Positions 1 through 37,698 of a stretch of 45,113 nucleotides of DNA are shown here, piece by piece (within the stretch, counting starts at the first letter, position 1; each line of letters begins with the position of its first letter). The stretch comes from Gammaproteobacteria bacterium (GTDB lineage: Bacteria > Pseudomonadota > Gammaproteobacteria > GCA-001735895): positions 1 to 45,113 of the forward strand of contig JAOTXY010000024.1 of assembly GCA_029862125.1 (NCBI GenBank). The letters run 5' to 3'. The position numbers and the translations under genes are program-made. Under the pieces are notes generated by a model, which ran no database searches, had not been told where the DNA came from, and was given only the letters and a program-made list of their open reading frames with translations.

Positions 1-152
1 GAATCCAAACTGGATACATCGCCGAAAGTTTGTATCTGAAGTCCCTCGACAACTGTAGTGAAATCGTTCTTAAGTATTTGCTGACGGTAACTACAACTTG
101 CTAAAACAATCGATACGAGTATCCAAAAGATGCGCGGCTTGTTATTCGGCAT
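1..152 (-). CDS. Partial lipoprotein, N-terminal part only
   Basis: A reading frame starts at an ATG (150-152) and stays open for about 50 codons until it leaves the window on the left. The first residues form a lipoprotein signal peptide: two positive charges (K5, R7), a hydrophobic stretch from I8 to L17, then a lipobox LASC with the lipidated cysteine at residue 20. The mature part visible (about 30 residues) matches nothing I recognise. No clear Shine-Dalgarno precedes the ATG. The first dispersed repeat lies just upstream. The signal peptide is convincing, but the gene is judged from its N-terminus alone, so its function is unknown. Confidence 0.55.
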   Translation of the reverse strand, partial: MPNNKPRIFWILVSIVLASCSYRQQILKNDFTTVVEGLQIQTFGDVSSLD

Positions 153-210
153 GTTTTCTAACAGCAGGATTAAAAGGTAATTGACCTGATAATATATTAT
201 CTGATGCCAG

Positions 211-314
211 GCGTCCGCTTATGGCCGTTCTCAGAAGCCCTGGAATGGTTAGCGAGTGTCTGTTATTGGGAAATACGACGCTCAAACTCGACGAATCAGC
301 GGCGATAAGCGACT
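211..314 (+). repeat. Dispersed repeat copy 1 (subfamily B)
   Basis: This is the most diverged full copy. The first half motif GTCCGCTTATGG starts at 213 and the second, GTCTGTTATTGG, at 258, exactly 45 bp later. The segment after the first half (GGCCGTTCTC) matches copy 4. The tail to 314 matches copy 3 without indels: AAGCGAC falls 94 bp after the first GTCC in both. It lies between the partial lipoprotein gene and the SnoaL-like gene. Confidence 0.7.
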
Positions 315-334
315 CATTACAGACCCCGGGACCA

Positions 335-745
335 TCAATCTGCGCTAATTGGGATCTGCGGTGAACCGGAATCTGTAGCGAAGCAGATACTGTGAATTTT
401 CCAATTGTTACTCCTATCACGCATAAGCACTTCAAGTGCCTTCCCTGACTCTGGCAAAATTGTCCCGTCAGTTTGGCGATACTCGCATTGATAATTGCAT
501 GTCATAACCACGATCTCACCATCATATTCAATCACGTTACTATCGTCGCGTAGACTGGCAATCCCAAAATCAATCCATGATTGGAAAAGATCTGTGAGAG
601 CTGTTTGGCCTCTCGTAATTTCCATATCCGGAGTAATGCAGGTGCCATCCTCAGTAAAACATGAGGCTGCTTCAGCAGCATCTCCCTTAACCAACGCGGC
701 ATTCACCATCAGATTTACATCAATTAGTTGCTGTTTAAGAGCCAT
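335..745 (-). CDS. SnoaL/NTF2-like (DUF4440-type) small protein
   Basis: A 136-residue protein with the look of the NTF2/SnoaL fold: an N-terminal helix pair (residues about 4-30, including the pattern ALVKGDAAEAASCFTEDG), then a beta-rich half with YDGEIVVMTCNYQCEY and a C-terminal NNWKIHSICF strand. Family members are cofactor-free isomerases or hydrolases, or ligand-binding proteins of unknown role; I cannot assign a substrate. No signal peptide, so probably cytoplasmic. The start at 745 is the only ATG that keeps the first helix. Only 40 bp separate it from the upstream hydrolase-cyclase gene on the same strand, with no repeat between them, so the two are probably co-transcribed. Confidence 0.75.
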   Translation of the reverse strand: MALKQQLIDVNLMVNAALVKGDAAEAASCFTEDGTCITPDMEITRGQTALTDLFQSWIDFGIASLRDDSNVIEYDGEIVVMTCNYQCEYRQTDGTILPESGKALEVLMRDRSNNWKIHSICFATDSGSPQIPISAD

Positions 746-785
746 GATTTTCCGCTTTTTTGGTCAAATTCTAATTAGTCGTTTG

Positions 786-2126
786 TTACTCCTGTAACAA
801 CCGAACCAACTTTCGAACCCCAATCCCCTTTAGATCGGCTTCTCCCCAATCTGTAAATACATAATCTCCGCCTTCTACAATACCTTGGGTCACAGTTGTG
901 GTAAGCACTTCTCCTTGATCCGCCTGGTCAGCGACACGTGAAGCGATATTGACAGCCGTACCGTGAATATCCTCGCCTGACCACTGAATTTCACCAGTAT
1001 GTAATCCTGCCCGAATTGGATACCCCAGCTCACTAGCATCTTGAACCAGTAGCCTAGCTGCACGTAACCCGTCACCAGGCACTTCGAATGCAGCTTTGAT
1101 ACCGTCGCCTGTGAAGCGAATCATCTTACCCCGGCATTGCTCAACGATGGTGGTTGAATTCTCCTCGAAAGCACTGATTATTTCTGTCCAGACGCGATCC
1201 CCCAACTTGCTTTGATGTTCTGTGGAACCAACGATGTCAGTAAACAAGATGGTGGAGATAACTCGCTCCGTAGACTCCTCTAAATGGCTCGGAGGTAAGG
1301 CTTCCATGAAATTCTCAATACCTTGATGTACATGGGGCAATGCGCCCTCATCAAACATGGGCATGTGGCAGTTCGAATCCAGTTCGAGATACTTTGCTCC
1401 TGGAATGTGTTCAGCGAAGTATCTTCCGTGCTGAACCGGATACAATAGGTCATCTTTTCCGTGTATGACCAGAGTCGGTTGTGTGATATGACGCAACATC
1501 GGTCGTAGGTCGAAACCCATCAGGCAACACCATATAAATCGATGTGAAGCGGGTGACGCCGTCGCCTGCATGTACTCAACTGCCAGGTCAATGTCCTCCT
1601 GACTTGAACCCGGTGCAATGCGTTCCGAGAAATCCCAGCACCACTGCGCAAAATCGGAATCAAGCGCCCCCAATGAGCGCTCCCAATCAAATAGCGTATT
1701 GCTATCTGAAAGACTGAGATAGGGGTCAGTAGCATCACAGCATACGCCTTCAATTAGAATTAACGCCCTGACCTTCTCGGGATAGGCTAACGCGTAAAGA
1801 ACGGCAAGAGGTGCGCCCTGTGAAAGACCGCACAAAGTGATAATCTCGCTGCCCGAAGCCTTGCGGATAGCCTCCACATCCACCACCTGCTGGTCAAGAT
1901 TTAGTGGACGCGCACTTCGGTCGGATACCCCGGTTGCTCGTTTGTCAAAATTGATTACACGACCAAATCGACCTAGAAATTGTTCCCAAGCCACGCTGTC
2001 GGGATAATATCTTTCAATGGCCAAATTTGAGAAAGCACCCGGCACATAGACGATAGACTCGTCACCTTCCCCAGTTATAGTGTAACCAAGGGATACGCCA
2101 TCGGATTGGGTGTAATGTATAGCCAC
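786..2126 (-). CDS. Alpha/beta hydrolase fused to class III nucleotide cyclase
   Basis: A 446-residue two-domain protein. Residues about 1-275 are an alpha/beta hydrolase with nucleophile elbow GLSQG (Ser102), an acid near D225/D226 and catalytic His254. Residues about 288-440 are a class III cyclase catalytic domain with metal aspartates D297 (FTDIVGS) and D341 (TGDG), and Asn393 and Arg397 in NIASR for the transition state. D386 is in the usual purine-contact position, but Arg337 replaces the lysine usual in adenylate cyclases. The same architecture is known in mycobacterial Rv1900c. The expected product is cAMP, or possibly another cyclic nucleotide; the hydrolase domain may sense or hydrolyse a small ester. 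No membrane segment. It is followed 40 bp downstream by the SnoaL-like gene. Confidence 0.9.
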   Translation of the reverse strand: MAIHYTQSDGVSLGYTITGEGDESIVYVPGAFSNLAIERYYPDSVAWEQFLGRFGRVINFDKRATGVSDRSARPLNLDQQVVDVEAIRKASGSEIITLCGLSQGAPLAVLYALAYPEKVRALILIEGVCCDATDPYLSLSDSNTLFDWERSLGALDSDFAQWCWDFSERIAPGSSQEDIDLAVEYMQATASPASHRFIWCCLMGFDLRPMLRHITQPTLVIHGKDDLLYPVQHGRYFAEHIPGAKYLELDSNCHMPMFDEGALPHVHQGIENFMEALPPSHLEESTERVISTILFTDIVGSTEHQSKLGDRVWTEIISAFEENSTTIVEQCRGKMIRFTGDGIKAAFEVPGDGLRAARLLVQDASELGYPIRAGLHTGEIQWSGEDIHGTAVNIASRVADQADQGEVLTTTVTQGIVEGGDYVFTDWGEADLKGIGVRKLVRLLQE

Positions 2127-2189
2127 TACTTTGGCCTTTTTCGATTGTTGGGCTTTATATTAAGCCAGAACGTTCAAATAGTTAAATGT

Positions 2190-2256
2190 GCGTCCGCTTC
2201 TGGCCGAAGATTGCCTCCCATCTATACTTTACGAGCGTCTCCTTTGGAGAAGTCAG
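2190..2256 (+). repeat. Dispersed repeat copy 2 (subfamily A)
   Basis: The first half motif GTCCGCTTCTGG starts at 2192 and the second, GTCTCCTTTGG, at 2237 (45 bp apart). The core between them (CCGAAGATTGCCTCCCA) is identical to copies 3 and 5. The second half contains the self-complementary TCTCC-TTT-GGAGA. The copy sits in the gap between the hydrolase-cyclase gene and the next membrane-protein gene. Confidence 0.85.
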
Positions 2257-2344
2257 AATATCAACGCGGGCACTTTGTCCGACTGCATGCGTTTGTTATG
2301 TGTGTTATCTCCATTCGATGACCTTCAACAAGATATCCGACTTA

Positions 2345-2911
2345 CTACCCTCGTATAAAGATTTTCAAGTACAAATTTATATACTGGTTTGGGTCAATTT
2401 TGCAGGCCCTGCCGCTAGGCGCTATTGAGGTAAATCTATTAACCCAGCCGCCCGAAAATACAAACATTTTATGCTCACCTAGAATTTTTTGGGATTCCTT
2501 TTCAATTATTTGAACCGTTCGCATTTTTATTCTTGGTGATTCGAGGTAATTCTTATTCGCAGCCACCTCCTCATATCTATACTTCAGTAGATCCTGATTT
2601 AGTGTTCCGTAGTTTCTGTGTCCAATTGGATATATAAACTTTGGACTTCCATCTTCATGCCAATACTTTGAACCTAATTCGACGGTTTCATAGATATGAG
2701 TACCACCTTCAGACTCGCACAAATTATCGAGACGCAGATTGCCCACTAGACTGTCGGCAATCAGGATTAAAATAAAGACAATTACTGAAAGCGATCGAAC
2801 GATAATCTTTACAATTTTCGAATGAAAGGGAAGTGCTACATATTTAGTAATGTACGCTGCCAACAGAACATAAAGTATGAAGGCAGCGATATAGAATACT
2901 TCAAGGAACAT
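2345..2911 (-). CDS. Unknown protein with two N-terminal membrane segments
   Basis: A 188-residue protein. Residues about 4-24 and 36-55 are hydrophobic helices; the rest (about 56-188) is soluble and probably periplasmic. The second helix ends with IADSLVG, followed by a pattern NLCESEGG..IYETVELG..YW..DGSPKF that I associate with a family of uncharacterised proteobacterial proteins of this layout; I know no function. The start ATG at 2911 places the first helix at the very N-terminus. The gene is alone, with a repeat copy on each side. It is AT-richer than the core genes to the right, in keeping with an accessory origin. Confidence 0.7.
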   Translation of the reverse strand: MFLEVFYIAAFILYVLLAAYITKYVALPFHSKIVKIIVRSLSVIVFILILIADSLVGNLRLDNLCESEGGTHIYETVELGSKYWHEDGSPKFIYPIGHRNYGTLNQDLLKYRYEEVAANKNYLESPRIKMRTVQIIEKESQKILGEHKMFVFSGGWVNRFTSIAPSGRACKIDPNQYINLYLKIFIRG

Positions 2912-3089
2912 CTAGCGTTTCACGACAAGTTTTAGAATTCTTTGGTATTGAAAAACACATAACAGCCAATTTAGAAGGCGAAAGGCCTTCTAAAATATAT
3001 TAGTGGGCGCACCTTTCTAACGGGATAATTCATATTAAGCTGGAAATAGAATTACTCAATTCCCTAAGTATAGCTAGCCTTTTATCCCA

Positions 3090-3193
3090 GTGTCCGCTTC
3101 TGGCCGAAGATTGCCTCCCACCAAGGTTTTATGAGCGTCTCCTTTGGAGAAAACAGACCCTTAATCTCGATATATCAGCAGCGACAAGCGACC
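3090..3193 (+). repeat. Dispersed repeat copy 3 (subfamily A, long form)
   Basis: Half motifs GTCCGCTTCTGG at 3092 and GTCTCCTTTGG at 3137 are 45 bp apart. The tail from about 3150 to 3193 matches copy 1 position by position, so the unit is at least 100 bp long in these two copies. It occupies the middle of the 409-bp gap 2912-3320 between divergent genes. Apart from possible promoters in AT-rich sequence I see nothing else in that gap. Confidence 0.85.
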
Positions 3194-3320
3194 TCTTTTT
3201 TCCCTTTTTCATGCTATAAAACGTTAGGCTTCGAGACACTGGCATAAACGAATTATTGCCTAACATCTTGTGGTAGGTATATTCTTGGGAACCACAGAAT
3301 GGTATTGGGACAGGGCTTAA

Positions 3321-3701
3321 ATGAGTAATAGATTGAGCAAGGATTTCGGACTCATAGACGGTCAAACCTATATCATTGGCAGAGAAGGTGGTGTTTATAT
3401 GGAAGGCCATATCTATATAAATTCCCCCTCTGTCAGCAGACGGCATGCCGCGATGAAAATTAAAAATGGAAGAATTTACCTTCGCGACCTAGATTCAACC
3501 AATGGCACCTATTTGATAGAAAATGATAGCCTGGTGCCCTTCAAAAAAGGATATGTGAGTCCATCTCAGCCAATAGTGATAGGTGAAGTAGAGTGCACGA
3601 TTAATAGCTTGCTAGCGATTGCCAGGGAGCATTCTGATTCAAAAAATACCACTTCTGATTTTGAAGAGACGAAACTAATGCCCCCAATCAATAAGACATG
3701 A
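3321..3701 (+). CDS. Stand-alone FHA domain protein
   Basis: A 126-residue protein that is nearly all forkhead-associated (FHA) domain, a phosphothreonine-binding module. The conserved loop residues are present: G20-R21 (IIGREGG), S37 and SRRH at 39-42, then DLDSTNGTYL with N61-G62-T63. The tail (about 100-126) is polar and ends with FEETKLMPP, in which T117 would be a plausible phospho-acceptor. No kinase, phosphatase or secretion gene is next to it, so the partner is unknown. Other FHA proteins of this size act as adaptors for Ser/Thr kinases or type VI secretion; nothing here favours one. Start ATG at 3321, with a weak purine-rich stretch upstream. Repeat copies lie on both sides. Confidence 0.85.
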   Translation: MSNRLSKDFGLIDGQTYIIGREGGVYMEGHIYINSPSVSRRHAAMKIKNGRIYLRDLDSTNGTYLIENDSLVPFKKGYVSPSQPIVIGEVECTINSLLAIAREHSDSKNTTSDFEETKLMPPINKT

Positions 3702-3855
3702 AAAAGACAATTTTAATGCACTATTTTCTAATCCTTAGTTTTCAATAGATCGCAGTGGATTGCCTCTTGTGGAGGTCATGTTTCTTTGCGCAATCGATTT
3801 AAATAACTAACTGGGTGAACAGAATATAAAAGGACTATTTATATAGTTAATACGA

Positions 3856-3948
3856 ACGTCCGTTTCTGGCCGTTCTCTGACCCACAAGATGCCCATTTCA
3901 GAGTCTGCTTTGGAGAAAACAAACCCTCGAATCTTGAGTTATCAATTG
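3856..3948 (+). repeat. Dispersed repeat copy 4 (subfamily B)
   Basis: Half motifs GTCCGTTTCTGG at 3858 and GTCTGCTTTGG at 3903, again 45 bp apart. The middle (CCGTTCTCTGA) follows copy 1 rather than copies 2, 3 and 5. It fills the centre of the 302-bp gap 3702-4003 between the FHA gene and the 88-residue gene. A perfect TATAAT (3966-3971) follows but has no well-spaced -35. Confidence 0.8.
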
Positions 3949-4003
3949 TCGTTGGCACTATCGTTTATAATTAGCTCCTAGCAATAGAATCTAGAAATAA
4001 ATC

Positions 4004-4270
4004 ATGCAATCTGTAGACGGTTTAAGTGAAGGGGCGAAAATAGCCTACCAAGCCTTTCTCGATATGAGTAATAGTAAGACGGCACATTTTAACCGCTTGA
4101 AAGCGACTAAAACTAAATACGAATCTGGTGGCGCACCCAGTATTACAGAAAGTCTGGAGTTGGAAAAATTGCTTGCCAATCATGATAAAAACGTACTGGC
4201 ATTTAAAACGGCAATGGCTGCTGTAACAGACAGTGATGAAAAGAAATCTTTGGTTGAACTAATGTCTTAA
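4004..4270 (+). CDS. Small hypothetical protein, probably helical
   Basis: An 88-residue protein I do not recognise. It is rich in K, A, S and E, lacks cysteine and tryptophan, and reads as two or three amphipathic helices (around 8-35 and 47-86). There is no signal peptide or membrane segment. The start ATG follows an AT-rich leader without a strong Shine-Dalgarno; a TATAAT lies about 35 bp upstream. The stop is only 10 bp before the next repeat copy. It stands alone as a one-gene unit bounded by repeats. The open frame and soluble composition favour a real gene, but it could still be spurious. Confidence 0.5.
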   Translation: MQSVDGLSEGAKIAYQAFLDMSNSKTAHFNRLKATKTKYESGGAPSITESLELEKLLANHDKNVLAFKTAMAAVTDSDEKKSLVELMS

Positions 4271-4280
4271 ATATTGCTGA

Positions 4281-4356
4281 GTGTCCACTTCTGGCCGAAG
4301 ATTGCCTCCCACCAGAACTTTACGAGCGTCTCCTTTGGAGAAAACATGCCCTCAAT
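4281..4356 (+). repeat. Dispersed repeat copy 5 (subfamily A)
   Basis: Half motifs GTCCACTTCTGG at 4283 and GTCTCCTTTGG at 4328, 45 bp apart, with the same CCGAAGATTGCCTCCCA core as copies 2 and 3. The short open frame running through it is a by-product of the repeat. It lies between the 88-residue gene and the TPR gene. Confidence 0.85.
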
Positions 4357-4549
4357 GCCTAGGATACAGAGGCGAAGTTCGACCCATAATCGATATTTAA
4401 TATTGAGTTTTTCGGGATTGCTTCGTGCCCGGAGCCTTCATTTATTCTCTTACGAGACCTCCAGTTTGAATCCAGGCTGGGCAGTTATACAATGATATCC
4501 GTTAAAAAGATCTAACCTTCTCATCCGAATATGAAGGAGAGGTGTCCGG

Positions 4550-5152
4550 TTGCGGTTCACCTGTATGAATATGAACTGGCGTCATGGTTCTCGAAAGATT
4601 CTGGTCTCATTCGCACTCATGTGCATATGCACTGTCTCGCTGCTTTATGCCGCAGAGTCTGAAGAGTCCACGTCCTCTCAAGAGGCTAAGTTGCTCTGGA
4701 AGAAGGGTTACTACTTGCACACTATTGGCAAGTACGAGAAAGCAATTAAATTATTCAGCCAGTCCATCGATTTGTACCCGACTGCCGAAGCCTACACGTT
4801 TCGCGGTTGGTCATTCAGCGAGCTCGGCCGCATCGAGGAGGCAATCGCCGAATGCAAGTTGGCCATTGAGCTTGACCCTGAATACGGAAACCCCTACAAC
4901 GACATTGGTGTATACCTCATAGACCTCGGTCGACCTGAAGAGGCAATTTCCTGGTTGAAGAAGGCCATCGAGGCAAAACGCTATTGTTGTTACCAGTACC
5001 CGCACTTCAACCTGGGGCGCGTCCTACTCATGCAAGGGCGTGTGTCGGAAGCCAAGCAGTCCCTTGCGCGTTCGCTCAGGTACGATCCCGATTACTTACC
5101 CGCGCGAATGTTACTCGAATTTATACGAGATAAGGGGCTCGAACCGATTTAA
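4550..5152 (+). CDS. Exported TPR-repeat protein
   Basis: A 200-residue protein with an N-terminal signal sequence (positive residues up to K16, hydrophobic 17-34, probable cleavage after the YAA at 33-35) and about four tetratricopeptide repeats: roughly 46-79, 80-112, 113-146 and 150-183. Typical TPR positions are visible (G-Y-x8-A in the first, GRIEEAIA and GRPEEAI in the next two). TPRs mediate protein binding; the partner is unknown and the protein is probably periplasmic. The start is taken as TTG at 4550 because AGGAGAGG (4535-4542) is well placed for it; ATG codons at 4565 and 4571 would also keep the signal peptide. It lies between repeat copies 5 and 6. Confidence 0.75.
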   Translation: MRFTCMNMNWRHGSRKILVSFALMCICTVSLLYAAESEESTSSQEAKLLWKKGYYLHTIGKYEKAIKLFSQSIDLYPTAEAYTFRGWSFSELGRIEEAIAECKLAIELDPEYGNPYNDIGVYLIDLGRPEEAISWLKKAIEAKRYCCYQYPHFNLGRVLLMQGRVSEAKQSLARSLRYDPDYLPARMLLEFIRDKGLEPI

Positions 5153-5481
5153 AGTCAAAAAGGTTTCAAGATTTGCACGGTTGATCGAGCGTCCGCTTTG
5201 GAGAATTCGTGTTGGTCGTTCGATTTCACCCCTGGCACCATTCTCCCTGTAAAAAATGGCTTGGCCGTACCTGTTTCACTCGGGCTTTGGCGAGCTGCAA
5301 TTTGAGTTAATTAATCGTACATCACTACTCGAGATGATTTGAGGTGCTCAAAAAAATTAAAGTTCCAGGTTCAAAAATACGAGTTCTTTACTACCGATTC
5401 TTTTCCACTGTTTCTGTGAATCCAGCAAGCCTATCCTGGGAATTGAGTATACTGTCCCCTGAATTGCACTGAGAGCAAAAA
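5153..5481. other. Gene-free gap with a repeat remnant
   Basis: This 329-bp stretch has no credible open frame. It contains the half-repeat at 5186-5207 and AT-rich sequence. A TATACT at 5448-5453, about 30 bp before the glutathione transferase gene, could be a -10 element, but no good -35 precedes it. Base composition changes clearly at its right end, from the AT-richer island to GC-rich coding sequence. Confidence 0.5.
5186..5207 (+). repeat. Half copy of the dispersed repeat
   Basis: The sequence CGAGCGTCCGCTTTGGAGAA resembles the second half motif of the repeat (CGAGCGTCTCCTTTGGAGAA in copies 2 and 5). No first half is found 45 bp upstream, where the TPR gene ends. It marks the right-hand limit of the repeat-spaced island. 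Confidence 0.55.
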
Positions 5482-6264
5482 ATGAACGAAAGCGACTACA
5501 CCCCGCCAAAAGTCTGGGCCTGGGACGAGGAATCCGGTGGCAAGTGGGCCGGCGTCAACCGCCCGATCGCAGGCCCCACCCATGAAAAAGTGCTGCCGGT
5601 GGGCGACGCACCCTTGCAGCTTTACTCGCTGGGCACGCCAAACGGCGTCAAGATCGCGGTGATGCTGGAGGAACTGCTGGCGATGGGCAAGACTGATGCC
5701 GCCTACGACCTGCACATCATCAATATCGGCAAGGGCGAGCAATTCGGTTCCGATTTCGTCAAGCTCAACCCGAACTCAAAAATACCGGTATTGCTCGACC
5801 GGTCCAAATCACCCGCGCAATCCGTGTTCGAATCCTGCGCGATTCTGTTCTATCTGGCGGAAAAGTACGATGCCCTGCTGCCCGGGGACGTGACAAACCG
5901 CACGGAATGCATTTCCTGGCTGTTCTGGCAGGAGAGCAGTGCGTCTTTCCTCGGCGGCGGCTTCGGCCATTTCTACCGCTACGCACCTTACCCGATGAAA
6001 TATCCGATCAACCGCTACGCCATGGAAACCAAGCGACAACTGGACGTGCTGGACCGTCACCTGGCAGAACTTGAATACATGTGTGCCAGCGGCTATTCGA
6101 TTGCCGACATCGCGATCTGGTCCTGGTACGGTCGCTTGGCAACGGGCGAGGTCTACGACGCCGAAGAGTTTCTGGACACGGCCTCTTACACGCATGTGCT
6201 GCGCTGGGCAAAGGCAATCCAGCAAAGGGAAGGAGTGCAAAAAGGGTTGGCGGCTACTCTTTGA
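5482..6264 (+). CDS. yghU: YghU-type glutathione S-transferase, C-terminus altered
   Basis: A 260-residue member of the glutathione transferase superfamily close to E. coli YghU/YfcG, enzymes with glutathione-disulfide reductase activity. Diagnostic stretches are the N-terminal NRPIAGPTHEKVLPVG, the thioredoxin-fold segment LYSLGTPNGVKIAVMLEELL, NPNSKIPVL and the C-terminal-domain GGGFGHFYRYAP and SIADIAIWSW. E. coli YghU is about 28 residues longer; here the frame ends in QKGLAATL just before a fragment of another gene, so the tail was probably lost in a deletion. The core domains are intact and activity may remain. It is GC-richer than the island on its left and is probably cytoplasmic. Confidence 0.88.
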   Translation: MNESDYTPPKVWAWDEESGGKWAGVNRPIAGPTHEKVLPVGDAPLQLYSLGTPNGVKIAVMLEELLAMGKTDAAYDLHIINIGKGEQFGSDFVKLNPNSKIPVLLDRSKSPAQSVFESCAILFYLAEKYDALLPGDVTNRTECISWLFWQESSASFLGGGFGHFYRYAPYPMKYPINRYAMETKRQLDVLDRHLAELEYMCASGYSIADIAIWSWYGRLATGEVYDAEEFLDTASYTHVLRWAKAIQQREGVQKGLAATL

Positions 6265-6403
6265 TTCATGGCGGTTTTGCATGGACATGCTGCAGGACAT
6301 CGGTGTCAACCACGTTGCGCTGAACCTGCGCTTTAACCGGGTGGATATCGAGACAACGTTGAAACATCTGGCCGACGAGATGCTGCCAGATTTTACCGAG
6401 TGA
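6265..6403 (+). pseudogene. C-terminal remnant of a luciferase-like monooxygenase
   Basis: In a different frame from the glutathione transferase, the codons up to the TGA at 6401-6403 encode MLQDIGVNHVALNLRF and then ADEMLPDF. This is the characteristic end of luciferase-like (LLM-class) flavin monooxygenases, which are normally over 300 residues. Only about 40 residues survive, with no start region, so this is a truncated relic. Its first recognisable residue follows the transferase stop by about 20 bp, which dates the junction to one deletion that took both the transferase tail and most of the monooxygenase. Confidence 0.65.
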
Positions 6404-6416
6404 GAGAGACAAGAAG

Positions 6417-6473
6417 ATGAAAAAAATTATCCTGATTACCGCTTCTACGAACGGCTTTTTTTACCGTGGCTAA
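6417..6473 (+). pseudogene. N-terminal remnant of a short-chain dehydrogenase
   Basis: Fourteen bases after the monooxygenase relic, behind AGAGAGACAAGAAG, an ATG opens MKKIILITASTNGF, the usual first strand and start of the TGxxxGxG loop in short-chain dehydrogenases. The frame then departs and stops at 6471-6473. It appears to be the head of a dehydrogenase gene that once followed the monooxygenase. It overlaps the 3' end of the minus-strand SDR gene. The fragment is short, so the assignment rests on a 14-residue match and its position. Confidence 0.5.
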
Positions 6474-7164
6474 TCGATTTTACGCGTGGTGAAAGATTGA
6501 CTTCATCGATGACGATATCGTGACTGGATTGAATTATCTGCCAGACAACATCGGCTACATCCGCCACTTCGATCGCGTTCATCGATTCGGGTCCTGGTTC
6601 GAATGAAAGATCGTCAAAAAAGGGGCTGCGTACCATGCCCGGGTTCACCAGGCTAACCTGGATGCCATCGCTACCACAGTCTTCGCGCAGCGACTGGCAA
6701 AAGCCGCGCAGCCCGTACTTGGCGGCACTGTAGAGTGCCCCTTTTTTGCCTGCCCGAAGCGCCGATTCGGAACCAATGAAAATAAGACGACCTTCGCCCT
6801 GGCGCCGAAATACCGGTACCAGGCTGCGGCATATCACCATTGCACTGGTCAGGTTTACTCGGATAGAGGCTTCGATCTGGGCGATAGAAAATTGCTCGAT
6901 AGATCCGAAATGACCCTGTCCGGCGGCATGAACAAAACAATTAACTTTGCGGGATTCCAATAATTCACCGATCTTCGACTCGAGGCCTTCGAGATCGCCG
7001 AGATCATGCGCCACGGCGCTGAAATTGTCATGTTCGAGCTTTGCCACATGACCACGCCGACTAAGACCAATGACCTGGTAACCCTGGCCTAGCAGCAGCT
7101 GCGAAGTCGCGAGCCCGATGCCGGAGCTGGCACCGGTTATCAATACGGTGCCGGGTTCAGCCAT
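6445..7164 (-). CDS. Short-chain dehydrogenase/reductase
   Basis: A 239-residue classical SDR. The NAD(P)-binding motif is TGASSGIG near residues 10-17, followed by LSRRG, which suggests NADPH. The catalytic set is visible: a serine in FIGSES and YSAAK (Tyr and Lys). AAGQGHFG takes the place of the NNAG motif. The substrate is unknown. The start ATG overlaps the upstream radical SAM gene by 8 bp, so translation is likely coupled. The last residues (HGKKSRS) are encoded by the antisense of the truncated dehydrogenase remnant, so the original C-terminus may have been replaced at the deletion junction. It is the last gene of a four-gene operon. Confidence 0.88.
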   Translation of the reverse strand: MAEPGTVLITGASSGIGLATSQLLLGQGYQVIGLSRRGHVAKLEHDNFSAVAHDLGDLEGLESKIGELLESRKVNCFVHAAGQGHFGSIEQFSIAQIEASIRVNLTSAMVICRSLVPVFRRQGEGRLIFIGSESALRAGKKGALYSAAKYGLRGFCQSLREDCGSDGIQVSLVNPGMVRSPFFDDLSFEPGPESMNAIEVADVADVVWQIIQSSHDIVIDEVNLSPRVKSISHGKKSRS

Positions 7165-8155
7165 GCCACTGGCAGGGGTGATAGCTTTGATGAGGGATAT
7201 GCTTCATTAACTGGGCTTCGCAGTATTCGATCATTTCCCGCTCGCGCTCTAGCGGGTAGCTGATAATACCATTGTCGAGATCCATTTTTTGTGCAAACAG
7301 GGGTTCTTCGGGATAAAGTCGTGCAACCTTGCGAAAGTGATCGCGGGTCAAACGGAAGCCGCCGAGGCTTACCGAGTGTAGTTTTTGTGGATCGACCGTG
7401 GTGAAAATCTCGTCAAGCAGGTTGACGAATGCTGCCTGGTAGTCCTGGTGATATACAACCGGGTCGAATCGCAGCCCGACGCTCCAACCTGCGTCAATCA
7501 GGCGCCGCATGGCGTCGACACGTTTTGCTATCGAAGGCACTCCGTGTTCGAGTTTTGCGTGGCTGACGGGGTCGGTAAAACTAAACGCGGTCACAATGCG
7601 TTCACAGGGTTGCAGCTTCAGCATCGATCGTACCTGGGTGCTTTTGGTACGCAGTTCCATCCAGGCGTTATCGATTGACGCAACCAGCGGAATGAAATAA
7701 TCGGTAAATTCCGTCATCGGCTCGTTCGCCAGGCTGTCGCAGTCGTATCCGGAGTAAAACCAGACTGCTTCACTACGATGTTTCGCGGCGACCTGCACAA
7801 TCCGCTCGCCGAAGTCTTCGTAATTGATAAACAGAATCTGATTTGCGGACTGGTACATCCCCTGCAGGAAACAGTAGCGGCAATCGTAGATACAGTTCAG
7901 CATGTGCGAAAAATAATAATTGTGACTACCGCCTAGACCGTAGCCTTCCGGTGCCGCCAGCACGTGGCCATCATTTTTGCGTGCAATAATGATGGCCGGA
8001 TTTTTCTTTTGTAAGCGGAAGTTTTGCGCTCGCGGATTAAATACTTCGCCGTAGTGTTCGATTTCAACCAAGGGTAAATTACACAGTCGTTCGAGCAGTT
8101 TCCGCGCCCTGGGATGGTCACGAATTTCGGTTTCGATATAGACGCAGCTGACCAT
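7157..8155 (-). CDS. Spore-photolyase-like radical SAM protein
   Basis: A 332-residue member of the spore photoproduct lyase (SplB) branch of radical SAM enzymes. The 4Fe-4S motif is CIYDCRYC, cysteines 88, 92 and 95 (C-x3-C-x2-C). A further cysteine, C139 in SGYDCDSLANE, lines up with the catalytic cysteine of SplB. The C-terminal half has the usual LRFDPVVYH and SLGGFRL strands. This gammaproteobacterial form is not from a spore former, so its substrate need not be spore photoproduct; DNA repair or another thymine-dimer-like reaction is inference. It is encoded between the nucleosidase-like gene (3-bp gap) and the SDR (8-bp overlap). Confidence 0.88.
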   Translation of the reverse strand: MVSCVYIETEIRDHPRARKLLERLCNLPLVEIEHYGEVFNPRAQNFRLQKKNPAIIIARKNDGHVLAAPEGYGLGGSHNYYFSHMLNCIYDCRYCFLQGMYQSANQILFINYEDFGERIVQVAAKHRSEAVWFYSGYDCDSLANEPMTEFTDYFIPLVASIDNAWMELRTKSTQVRSMLKLQPCERIVTAFSFTDPVSHAKLEHGVPSIAKRVDAMRRLIDAGWSVGLRFDPVVYHQDYQAAFVNLLDEIFTTVDPQKLHSVSLGGFRLTRDHFRKVARLYPEEPLFAQKMDLDNGIISYPLEREREMIEYCEAQLMKHIPHQSYHPCQWHG

Positions 8156-8158
8156 GTT

Positions 8159-8968
8159 TTACAGACCTTCGCTGTCCTGGTAGCTAAGCAGTTCCAGGGT
8201 ACTGATGATAGTCGCGGCGGAGGAGCAACCCCTGAGTTTCTGTAGAACTGTTTCGGCACTGTTGTCCCGGTTCATGAGGTAGCGCCACAAGACGCGTAGT
8301 CGATTCTTCTGGGTCTGGCTGAAATGGGCCAGTGCAATCAGCTGCTGCCAGGATTCGGGGTTCACGGCAAGCCCGGCAATCTGTTTGTTGAGCGCGATCA
8401 GGGCGTTTGCCTGCTGGCCGATTGTGTCGATATTCTGGTGGATTAAATCACTGACCCGCTGGCGGTTTTTTCCGGTCTGGTGCGCGCGATTATCACTGAC
8501 AATTTTTATACATTGCGTCAATTCGGCGCTGCTGAAGCGTAGCGCGCTGTAGATGAAACCACTGGCCTCCATATCGTACAAGGTGTCTTCACGGTAGTCT
8601 TCGCTGGATTGACTTAAGGTAAGGCATGCACTGCCGGGCAACAACGAGCCGGCGCAGGGGACCGGGTAGTAGCGTTGACCGCTGTCGGCATCGATAACCT
8701 GGTTAAGTGAAAACGCCGCACCGATTTCATGCTGGCCGCTGCCGGCGACACCCAGGTTCATCCAGGCGATCGAGGCCTCGTGATCATATCGAGCGGCAAG
8801 CCAGGCGCAGGCCGCGGCACTTGCAATCTTGCCGACACCGCTGATGATGCAAAGCATGTCATCACCGCGGTAGAGATCGAATGCATTGTCATCATGCGAT
8901 TTTTTCAAGCGGTAATAATCGATTACAGGCTTGGCTTCACAGTGTAATGCAGATACCCAGATTAACAT
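8159..8968 (-). CDS. Nucleoside phosphorylase/nucleosidase-like protein
   Basis: A 269-residue protein whose first 180 residues resemble the PNP/UDP phosphorylase superfamily (5'-methylthioadenosine/SAH nucleosidase branch). Supporting stretches are ISGVGKIASAAA, LGVAGSG and YDMEASGF, where the Glu of the MEA motif normally binds the ribose, and KIVSDN with the Asp expected to protonate the base. The C-terminal 80-90 residues are an extra helical region that I do not recognise. Its substrate is unknown. It overlaps the glycosyltransferase gene by 7 bp and is followed 3 bp later by the radical SAM gene. Because radical SAM enzymes release 5'-deoxyadenosine, a nucleosidase beside one is suggestive, though this is inference. 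Confidence 0.75.
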   Translation of the reverse strand: MLIWVSALHCEAKPVIDYYRLKKSHDDNAFDLYRGDDMLCIISGVGKIASAAACAWLAARYDHEASIAWMNLGVAGSGQHEIGAAFSLNQVIDADSGQRYYPVPCAGSLLPGSACLTLSQSSEDYREDTLYDMEASGFIYSALRFSSAELTQCIKIVSDNRAHQTGKNRQRVSDLIHQNIDTIGQQANALIALNKQIAGLAVNPESWQQLIALAHFSQTQKNRLRVLWRYLMNRDNSAETVLQKLRGCSSAATIISTLELLSYQDSEGL

Positions 8969-9807
8969 TGTGCCAACTGCTCTCCATGTCGATACCAGTT
9001 GTCGCGCAGGGGAATAAATTCATCGAGCAGCGCCTGGTTATGATGTTTGACGGCGCCATTAATCAATATATCGAGTTTGTTCAGCAGGGTCGCCTCGGCG
9101 GCACGATAATATTCTGGTTGCAGGGTTGCCGTTGTTAACAGTCGATGCAGCGCGTGGATACGAAAACGATCCATAGCCGGATATTGCTGCGAGAGTTGAT
9201 CGTCGTGCCCCCCGTACTTGGTGATTAACGCCTTGTCGATGTAGTGCACCGGGAATTGATGACACAATCGCAGCCACAAATCATAGTCTTCGCAGGCGGG
9301 CAATTTTTCGTCAAACATGCCGAGTGATTCCAGCGTTGATTTACTGATTACCGAGGCCGATGGTGATATGGCACATAGCGGCAGGCAGCTTTCAAATATC
9401 CAGCCACCGTTCTTGCGGTGCTTGTGTTTCGGATTGACGCGAACCCCGCGACGGACCCAGATTTCATCCGAGTGATAAAGCACGAATCCGGGGTGTTGCT
9501 GCCGGGCGTCACGGATCAGTTCGATTTTTCGCGGCATCCAGCTATCGTCCGAGTCCAGCAGGGCAATCCATTCGAAACGGGCTGATGCGATGCCGCGGTT
9601 ACGTGCCGCGCTGACGCCGAGATTTGGCTGGCATAGAACTTTAACCTCGGGATATTGTCGTTTGACCATGTCGCTGCTGCCATCGCTCGAGCCGTCATCG
9701 ACGAGGATGATTTCATCGACCGTCGAAGTCTGATCGAAGACCGACTGCAGTGCCCGTTCAAGGGTGTGCCTGCGGTTGTAGCTGGGAATAACGACGGAGA
9801 TTTGCAT
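8962..9807 (-). CDS. Family 2 glycosyltransferase
   Basis: A 281-residue GT-A-fold glycosyltransferase. The N-terminus ISVVIPSYNRRHTLERAL, the ILVDDGSSDGS nucleotide-binding loop, GVSAARNRGI and the metal-binding DSDD are all present, and EDYDLWLRL is the usual catalytic-acid region. There is no membrane helix. It probably adds a sugar to a surface polysaccharide or lipid; neither donor nor acceptor can be told. It begins the tightly packed group glycosyltransferase - nucleosidase - radical SAM - SDR; the DUF1820 gene lies 20 bp upstream. Confidence 0.9.
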   Translation of the reverse strand: MQISVVIPSYNRRHTLERALQSVFDQTSTVDEIILVDDGSSDGSSDMVKRQYPEVKVLCQPNLGVSAARNRGIASARFEWIALLDSDDSWMPRKIELIRDARQQHPGFVLYHSDEIWVRRGVRVNPKHKHRKNGGWIFESCLPLCAISPSASVISKSTLESLGMFDEKLPACEDYDLWLRLCHQFPVHYIDKALITKYGGHDDQLSQQYPAMDRFRIHALHRLLTTATLQPEYYRAAEATLLNKLDILINGAVKHHNQALLDEFIPLRDNWYRHGEQLAQC

Positions 9808-37607: not shown

Positions 37608-37631
37608 AAATAATCTCCAAAACTATTTATG
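37605..37631 (-). promoter_or_regulatory. Hairpin over the ahcY ribosome binding site and start
   Basis: On the minus strand CATAAATA (complement of 37624-37631) and TATTTATG (complement of 37605-37612) form a perfect eight-pair stem with an 11-base loop GTTTTGGAGAT. The loop displays the GGAG ribosome site and the stem contains the start codon. The first base of the stem is also the last base of the SAH riboswitch, so ligand binding could change access to the start. Confidence 0.65.
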
Positions 37632-37698
37632 AGCGCCGTTGAATTGATCAGGTGAACGAGCCTGGCAGCCAAGCTGTCGCAGCGCTCCTCGCACACCT
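37631..37698 (-). ncRNA. SAH riboswitch upstream of ahcY
   Basis: Read on the minus strand, the 68 bases contain the SAH-riboswitch signature in order: GAGGAGCGCTGCGAC, then GCCAGGCTCG, then CAACGGCGCTC at the 3' end. GAGCGC pairs with GCGCTC to make the closing stem, GCGAG with CTCG, and AGGTG with CACCT. Known SAH riboswitches bind S-adenosylhomocysteine and raise ahcY expression, which fits the gene directly downstream. Confidence 0.9.

Follow-up and report, generated by a model that had tools for sequence, protein, structure and literature searches.

The island and its spacer element

The analysed DNA (the window) is a stretch of 45,113 nucleotides (nt) from a gammaproteobacterial genome whose assembly comprises 188 contigs totalling 3.7 Mb, with 91% completeness and 3% contamination; it corresponds to contig C103:1-45113. 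This genome is designated G000, and other genomes, contigs and loci are referred to by G, C and L numbers. An island at window 1-5207 holds seven genes, five copies of one non-coding spacer element and a truncated sixth copy, with all copies on the plus strand (Table 1). The only island gap without an element (746-785) lies between the SnoaL-like and hydrolase-cyclase genes, and the element positions agree with the first-pass annotation, which had placed one repeat in every gap save one and always in plus orientation. Pfam agreed with the gene calls (DUF4440/SnoaL, alpha/beta-hydrolase plus cyclase, FHA and TPR) and gave no family match for the 188-aa and 88-aa island proteins.

A consensus of 124 columns (m1-m124) was derived from an alignment of 26 long copies. 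The element is an imperfect inverted repeat of ~124 nt, with short forms of ~60 nt also present. Its first motif, GTC-N6-TGGCCG, occupies m7-21; a second motif related to the first lies at m46-66 (GAGCGTC..CTTTGGAGAA), and a third is inverted, with CGACCC at m104-109. The core TGGCCG (m16-21) was 97-100% conserved in 101 distinct full-length copies. Folding of the plus strand gave a consensus with only 3 pairs, and the opposite strand showed a weakly paired core and no covariation. A T.G pair was present on the bottom strand in 93 of 101 copies and an unpaired G in 95 of 101. The bottom-strand z-score was lower in 7 of 9 elements, mostly slightly, and the 18 folds ranged from +0.08 to -4.75.

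Distribution and array organisation

In the own genome the element model matched at least 144 places (150 of 1022 candidates scored), a count that includes some palindromic copies counted on both strands. An independent profile was applied to 108 loci taken from the genus and located 335 elements; these lay in 98 of the loci and came from 12 genomes. The element in the window is not a chance occurrence. With 90 candidates scored per genome, 21 of the 23 congeners searched had it, as did G034 alone among the other 15 genomes. When 321 genomes were drawn class-wide and searched with stricter filters and an E value of 1e-6, it was returned only in the own genome, one congener and G034 (one of 319 others). 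Searches of 25 loci surrounding integron integrases in other named records did not detect it, nor did searches of viral contigs (with one exact pattern) or of plasmids and phages (with one copy as query). Among the congeners, G013 is the metagenome-assembled genome Ww580: G013:C44 and JAHEKJ010000017.1 are equal over their first 11,266 bases.

The elements lay in clustered arrays, with none detected at E 1e-3 in the remaining 40 kb of the window; the even spread over all intergenic regions that would have spoken against gene cassettes was not observed. Neighbouring elements less than 3 kb apart (score >40) had the same orientation in 122 of 123 cases and the opposite orientation in one. The 222 units between same-strand neighbours had a median length of 1,020 nt, and contained one main open reading frame (ORF) in 178 cases, two in 36, none in seven and three in one. 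Main ORFs ran against the element strand (154) or along it (99). Mean G+C was 48% in array DNA and 53% in the flanks. Array orientation was not correlated with GC skew (61 loci: 32 same, 29 opposite). One array unit (L109:13428-14756; G020:C6) carries a glutamate dehydrogenase-like gene, named from sequence alone, and units are thus not restricted to orphan genes.

Units shared between loci

The 150 nt to the left and 250 nt to the right of every element were compared. Common flanks were found in 52 element pairs, on the left only in 19, on the right only in 32 and on both sides in one, and gene order was not kept in 51 of the 52. The orientation of the unit relative to the element was the same in 58 shared pairs and opposite in two. 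Of the interspecies matches of at least 250 nt, 25 began and stopped no more than 30 nt from an element in one or both of the loci compared; in a further 41, this was true of one end. Seventeen of the 25 were between G000 and G020, with a median identity of 85.9% (range 69.6-94.1); long matches between the same two genomes far from elements (n = 3) had a median identity of 81.0%. Three window units recurred elsewhere: the FHA unit in own contigs C70 and C112 and in G020, the TPR unit (window 4324-5197) in G020 (L111) with 94% identity and bounded by elements there too, and the lipoprotein unit (window 1-228) in own contig G000:C16:21003-21230. Whole blocks were shared, with joins mapping to the repeat; whether gene units between copies behave as blocks was a check suggested in the first-pass annotation.

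The lipoprotein unit on the end of C16 (L027:10004-10231) and that of window 1-228 have different right neighbours and one mismatch in the compared stretch; this reflects a recent duplication or else variation in the population sampled.

Position of the joins

Left-shared pairs retained high identity through m21 (0.86, 0.83 and 0.91 vs. background 0.46, 0.64 and 0.81) and were near background at m22-30 (0.63 vs. 0.59). Right-shared pairs were at background identity at m1-14 and raised from m22 on. Base-by-base alignments placed the join near the core in window/C16, L024/L105 and L023/L178; in window/C16, a nearly identical pair, identity was kept to m22 and then lost immediately. In L016:7922/L113:10179, 273 of 286 positions were identical and ungapped from TGGCCG rightwards, with one mismatch in the first ~200, and only 27 of the 60 nt left of TGGCCG were identical. 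Joins fell at the second motif in window/L111 and L174/L018, and at or near CGACCC in L137/L027 and L036/L108. The joins map to the element and are best resolved at the core TGGCCG, others being at the two related motifs.

The island is read here, with a probability of about 0.58, as an oriented array of mostly single-gene cassettes in which the ~124-bp spacer element likely serves as a site-specific recombination site. Units would be excised as circles and reinserted at the conserved core of the element, a tyrosine recombinase presumably acting at GTC-N6-TGGCCG and at its inner and inverted copies. A circular intermediate is suggested because inserting a one-site circle into a site always gives direct repeats in one orientation.

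The main rival is ordinary RecA-type or microhomology-driven exchange between dispersed repeats, the element being passive homology. This is unlikely, if less so than the other alternatives. Breakpoints at several conserved tracts of the element, not at one, would suit it, as would the position of the longest in-register identical runs (most often m45-70 and m14-24) and the finding of no dedicated recombinase. Against it, full-length elements had a mean pairwise identity of 59% and a median longest identical run of 11 nt in sampled pairs (at least 20 nt in 7.6% of these and at least 25 nt in 1.3%), which is short for RecA, and the window/C16 join leaves at most ~22 nt of homology. Homology this short would argue against RecA-type exchange without being decisive. 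With such low identity and short runs between elements, misassembly at repeats is also an unlikely source of the pattern.

The chromosomal site in relatives

Within the genus, the right flank of the window array is conserved: some part of the probe found a match in 30 of 31 genomes. The site region was compared in 13 relatives (G006, G020, G019, G023, G015, G017, G039, G044, G022, G005, G004, G040 and G045) between a GGDEF/EAL gene as left anchor and a dehydrogenase gene as right anchor, both named from sequence. All 12 relatives other than G045 had neither array nor element, with the anchors 34 nt to 1.35 kb apart as measured between alignment ends. In G045 these anchors enclosed 13.8 kb that carries other genes and five elements in the same orientation; outside the elements, this insert had no nucleotide match to the window array. 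G045 is the closest of the relatives examined (91.5% identical over window 5299-9800), and its left anchor is 96% identical to the own left anchor, which lies on contig C16. The leftmost partial element is common to C16 and G045, and the two sequences diverge just past its CGACCC motif; on the right side, homology starts inside an element-like stretch of G045 (TCTGAGTCAATTAATCG, by eye). The own genome and G045 thus have both the left and the right end in common but differ in what lies between them. By contrast, the core genes flanking the site were collinear between G006 and G020 (13.6 kb plus 4 kb). Conservation of gene content and order in relatives, named beforehand as evidence against cassettes, was not seen, as 12 of 12 relatives examined were empty and G045 was filled differently.

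These comparisons also bear on a miniature inverted-repeat transposable element (MITE) or a repetitive extragenic palindromic (REP)-like element that spread into intergenic gaps between genes that are not mobile. Such an origin is disfavoured and very improbable. The inverted-repeat architecture would be expected of it (81% of designated cells paired between the halves vs. 31-47% when slid by 1-3 columns), and a RAYT-type (Y1_Tnp) gene is present in 10 of 11 genus genomes. It does not account for uniform element orientation, for flank sharing on one side only in 51 of 52 pairs, or for the presence or absence of the whole array at the window site. Insertion in either orientation at kept gene order, which would mark a MITE, was not what was found (122 of 123 neighbours alike; order broken in 51 of 52). 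No element flanked RAYT at the 12 loci examined of 33 matches, and the transposon-derived origin that the first-pass annotation had considered for the repeat was accordingly not borne out.

Relation to the resident integron

An integron integrase is encoded on C143 (421 bits vs. a cut-off of 265; NCBIfam concurs), and intI was found in 13 of the 31 genomes of the genus, the own genome included. At locus L039 (G000:C8:1-10600), ordinary integron cassettes with canonical attC sites stand in a row. Neither this row nor the 13 intI loci (L089-L101, 2.5-3.9 kb each) contained the element. Next to the window array no integron integrase was found, intI being on another contig. The first-pass annotation had seen neither attC core sites nor an integrase: pieces of attC are in fact present in the window (2267-2300 and 2956-3015), and the integrase gene lies elsewhere in the genome, on C143.

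Among 294 elements, an attC arm lay nearby downstream on the same strand in 25, on the opposite strand in one and upstream in none, at distances that were alike within short forms and within long forms of the element. A type-A arm (Table 1) accompanied the attC arm at four of 301 elements. The crossover core of attC is GTT, within a site of the form R''/L''/L'/R'. The resolved joins were not at attC cores, and fell at TGGCCG and related motifs. The block shared by L032 and L112 continues past the attC arm into the element and does not end at an attC core.

The arrays could in principle be an ordinary sedentary chromosomal integron whose attC sites have received an inserted repeat, with IntI moving cassettes at attC. 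The integrase on C143, the attC cassettes on C8 and the attC arms downstream of some elements are in its favour. It is nevertheless improbable, as such an arm accompanies just 25 of 294 elements, the L032/L112 block runs beyond its arm into the element, the intI loci and the C8 array are element-free, and intI is present in 13 of 31 genus genomes. The element system and the integron would instead be two systems that splice into each other, crossover usually taking place at the element core.

The att-like stretch that precedes intI, seen at L015:880-960 and at other intI loci, has weak similarity to the type-A arm (E 1e-4 to 0.7), and the two kinds of site may have a common ancestry. The element arrays, however, sit elsewhere than this stretch.

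Candidate recombinases and points against the cassette reading

Each of the 11 genus genomes searched encoded one or more strongly scoring tyrosine recombinases of XerC/XerD size, putatively Xer enzymes; other tyrosine recombinases were patchy among them. Suspicion falls first on a XerCD-like host enzyme, given the 6-bp spacer of dif modules, and second on the integron integrase. A 207-aa FimB-like tyrosine recombinase gene (L016:9667-10290; G000:C1) lies at the sole orientation switch between neighbouring elements; three of the four copies of the FimB-like gene are broken or partial.

Several results weigh against site-specific recombination of cassettes at the element. The presence of intI had no relation by eye to element number in 31 genomes, the FimB-like gene was present in just four of 31 and so is not tied to the element, and serine recombinases, found in three of 11 genomes with one under the cut-off, had no link to it. 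No circle has been seen. Covariation of inverted-repeat partners within an element was not above shuffles, nor was matching of motif 3 with motif 1 in the same or the next element (p = 0.94 and 0.23). One pair, L141:1566(-) of G006 and L024:4619(-) of G000, has both flanking units in common, at 88% and with a right-side offset of 83 nt. The one-sided lists left out three of 23 left-sharing and four of 36 right-sharing pairs under the rule for homology that falls short of the element, and L141/L024, one of the four, in fact has both flanks in common. Fitted breakpoints of the 19 left-shared pairs allowed m15-22 in six, and lay before it in nine and after it in four. Of those for 31 right-shared pairs, three allowed m15-22, one lay before it, four were at m23-45, five at m46-70, and 18 beyond m70, some past the end of the element. 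The fit assumed 90% identity, which shifts estimates outward for diverged non-coding DNA. When two loci are compared, the left side reveals the smaller of two crossovers and the right side the larger one; a spread over the three motifs is therefore expected. The joins do not prove a single crossover point.

The cassette idea of the first-pass annotation was thus supported in part, by block sharing, the joins and clustering; a recombinase that co-occurs with the repeat, which it had proposed to look for, was not borne out among intI, FimB-like, serine and other tyrosine recombinases, and neither was the transposon origin.

Comparison with known systems

Integrons and dif modules are the gene-cassette systems closest to the element arrays. 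Like sedentary chromosomal integron arrays, these arrays have mostly single-gene units of ~1 kb, one site orientation, an imperfect palindromic site and strong content turnover between species, and the own genome also has a real integron. They differ in a ~124-nt site with a TGGCCG core, joins in the core and related motifs, location at many chromosomal places and main ORFs running both ways (154 vs. 99). Both attC arms at each unit end, as in integrons, were not found here, one arm being near 25 of 294 elements. Integron attC is described as acting as a folded bottom strand with extrahelical bases (PMC8946536).

Acinetobacter plasmid dif modules (pdif/XerCD) are described as having short sites with a 6-bp spacer between binding sites and as being shuffled between replicons (PMC13141974); pdif sites are 28 bp long and alternate in orientation, so that C and D modules alternate (PMC13141974). 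The arrays resemble them in having gene modules bounded by sites, and the element has a conserved 6-bp core that may be a counterpart of this spacer. Unlike in dif modules, the sites face one way, the site is longer and the arms are not dif-like by eye; alternation of site orientation was not observed (122 of 123 neighbours the same).

REP/REPIN (REP doublet-forming hairpin) and CGTC-tagged REP families are likewise dispersed intergenic inverted-repeat DNA with a GTC motif (PMC3733652). The present element differs from REP/REPIN in being longer, unidirectional in arrays, not flanking the examined RAYT genes and tied to whole-gene exchange. Literature searches found no description of such arrays, which is not proof of absence.

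A bolder proposal, advanced tentatively and with somewhat less than even confidence, is that the arrays form a second cassette-collecting system independent of integrons, with a ~124-bp TGGCCG-core site and its own or a co-opted recombinase. It would assemble and rearrange dozens of chromosomal arrays beside the resident integron, the site being so far almost confined to one genus, and would at times splice attC arms into its own sites. If so, cassette sites would exist in one more kind, found in numerous arrays on each chromosome and with strong turnover among congeners, and gene collecting of this type would have arisen more than once. The TGGCCG core offers a concrete sequence for seeking the enzyme.

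Other features of the window

Table 1. Features of the island and its right flank, in window coordinates.
Feature	Position	Strand	Basis
Putative lipoprotein gene, 5' part, cut by contig start	1..152	-	sequence reading alone
Left arm type A (CTAACAGC...GATAATATATTATC), recurs upstream of elements	158..206	+	sequence comparison
Element copy 1, core TGGCCG 222-227	207..330	+	element model
SnoaL-like/DUF4440 gene	335..745	-	Pfam
Alpha/beta-hydrolase plus adenylate cyclase gene; LipJ-like but under NCBIfam cut-off	786..2126	-	Pfam, NCBIfam
Element copy 2, short form (~66 nt of element) fused to attC arm, core 2201-2206	2186..2300	+	
attC R''/L'' arm, bottom strand CATAACAAACGCATGCAGTCGGACAAAGTGCCCG	2267..2300	-	
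Membrane protein gene, no family	2345..2911	-	Pfam, NCBIfam
Decayed att-like site, 85% identical to region directly upstream of intI (G000:C143:880-939)	2956..3015		
Element copy 3, core 3101-3106	3086..3209	+	element model
FHA-domain gene	3321..3701	+	Pfam
Element copy 4, core 3867-3872	3852..3974	+	element model
88-aa gene, no family	4004..4270	+	Pfam, NCBIfam
Element copy 5, core 4292-4297	4277..4400	+	element model
TPR gene	4550..5152	+	Pfam
Truncated element (GAGCGTCCGCTT joined to TGGAGAA)	5176..5205	+	
tRNA 3'-end-like sequence (TTCGATTTCACCCCTGGCACCA)	5219..5240	+	sequence reading
Right flank; collinearity with G045 (91.5%), extending to the other examined relatives from 6457 onward	5299..9800		
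Glutathione S-transferase gene; adjoins right flank in G045 too; in other congeners matches elsewhere	5482..6264	+	
Short-chain dehydrogenase gene, right anchor of insertion site	6445..7164	-	named from sequence

The sequence at window 5219-5240, just past the truncated element, is one which we take to resemble a tRNA 3' end. With up to two mismatches, this sequence (TTCGATTCCACCCCTGGCA) occurred there and at L027:9210, L211:838, L016:1045, L022:1202(-), L023:2705(-) and L177:6126(-), and three of the seven places are array ends. ARAGORN found no tRNA in the window, L027, L211, L016, L022 or L023. At the Rfam gathering score the only match in the window was an S-adenosylhomocysteine (SAH) riboswitch at 37624-37696 on the minus strand.

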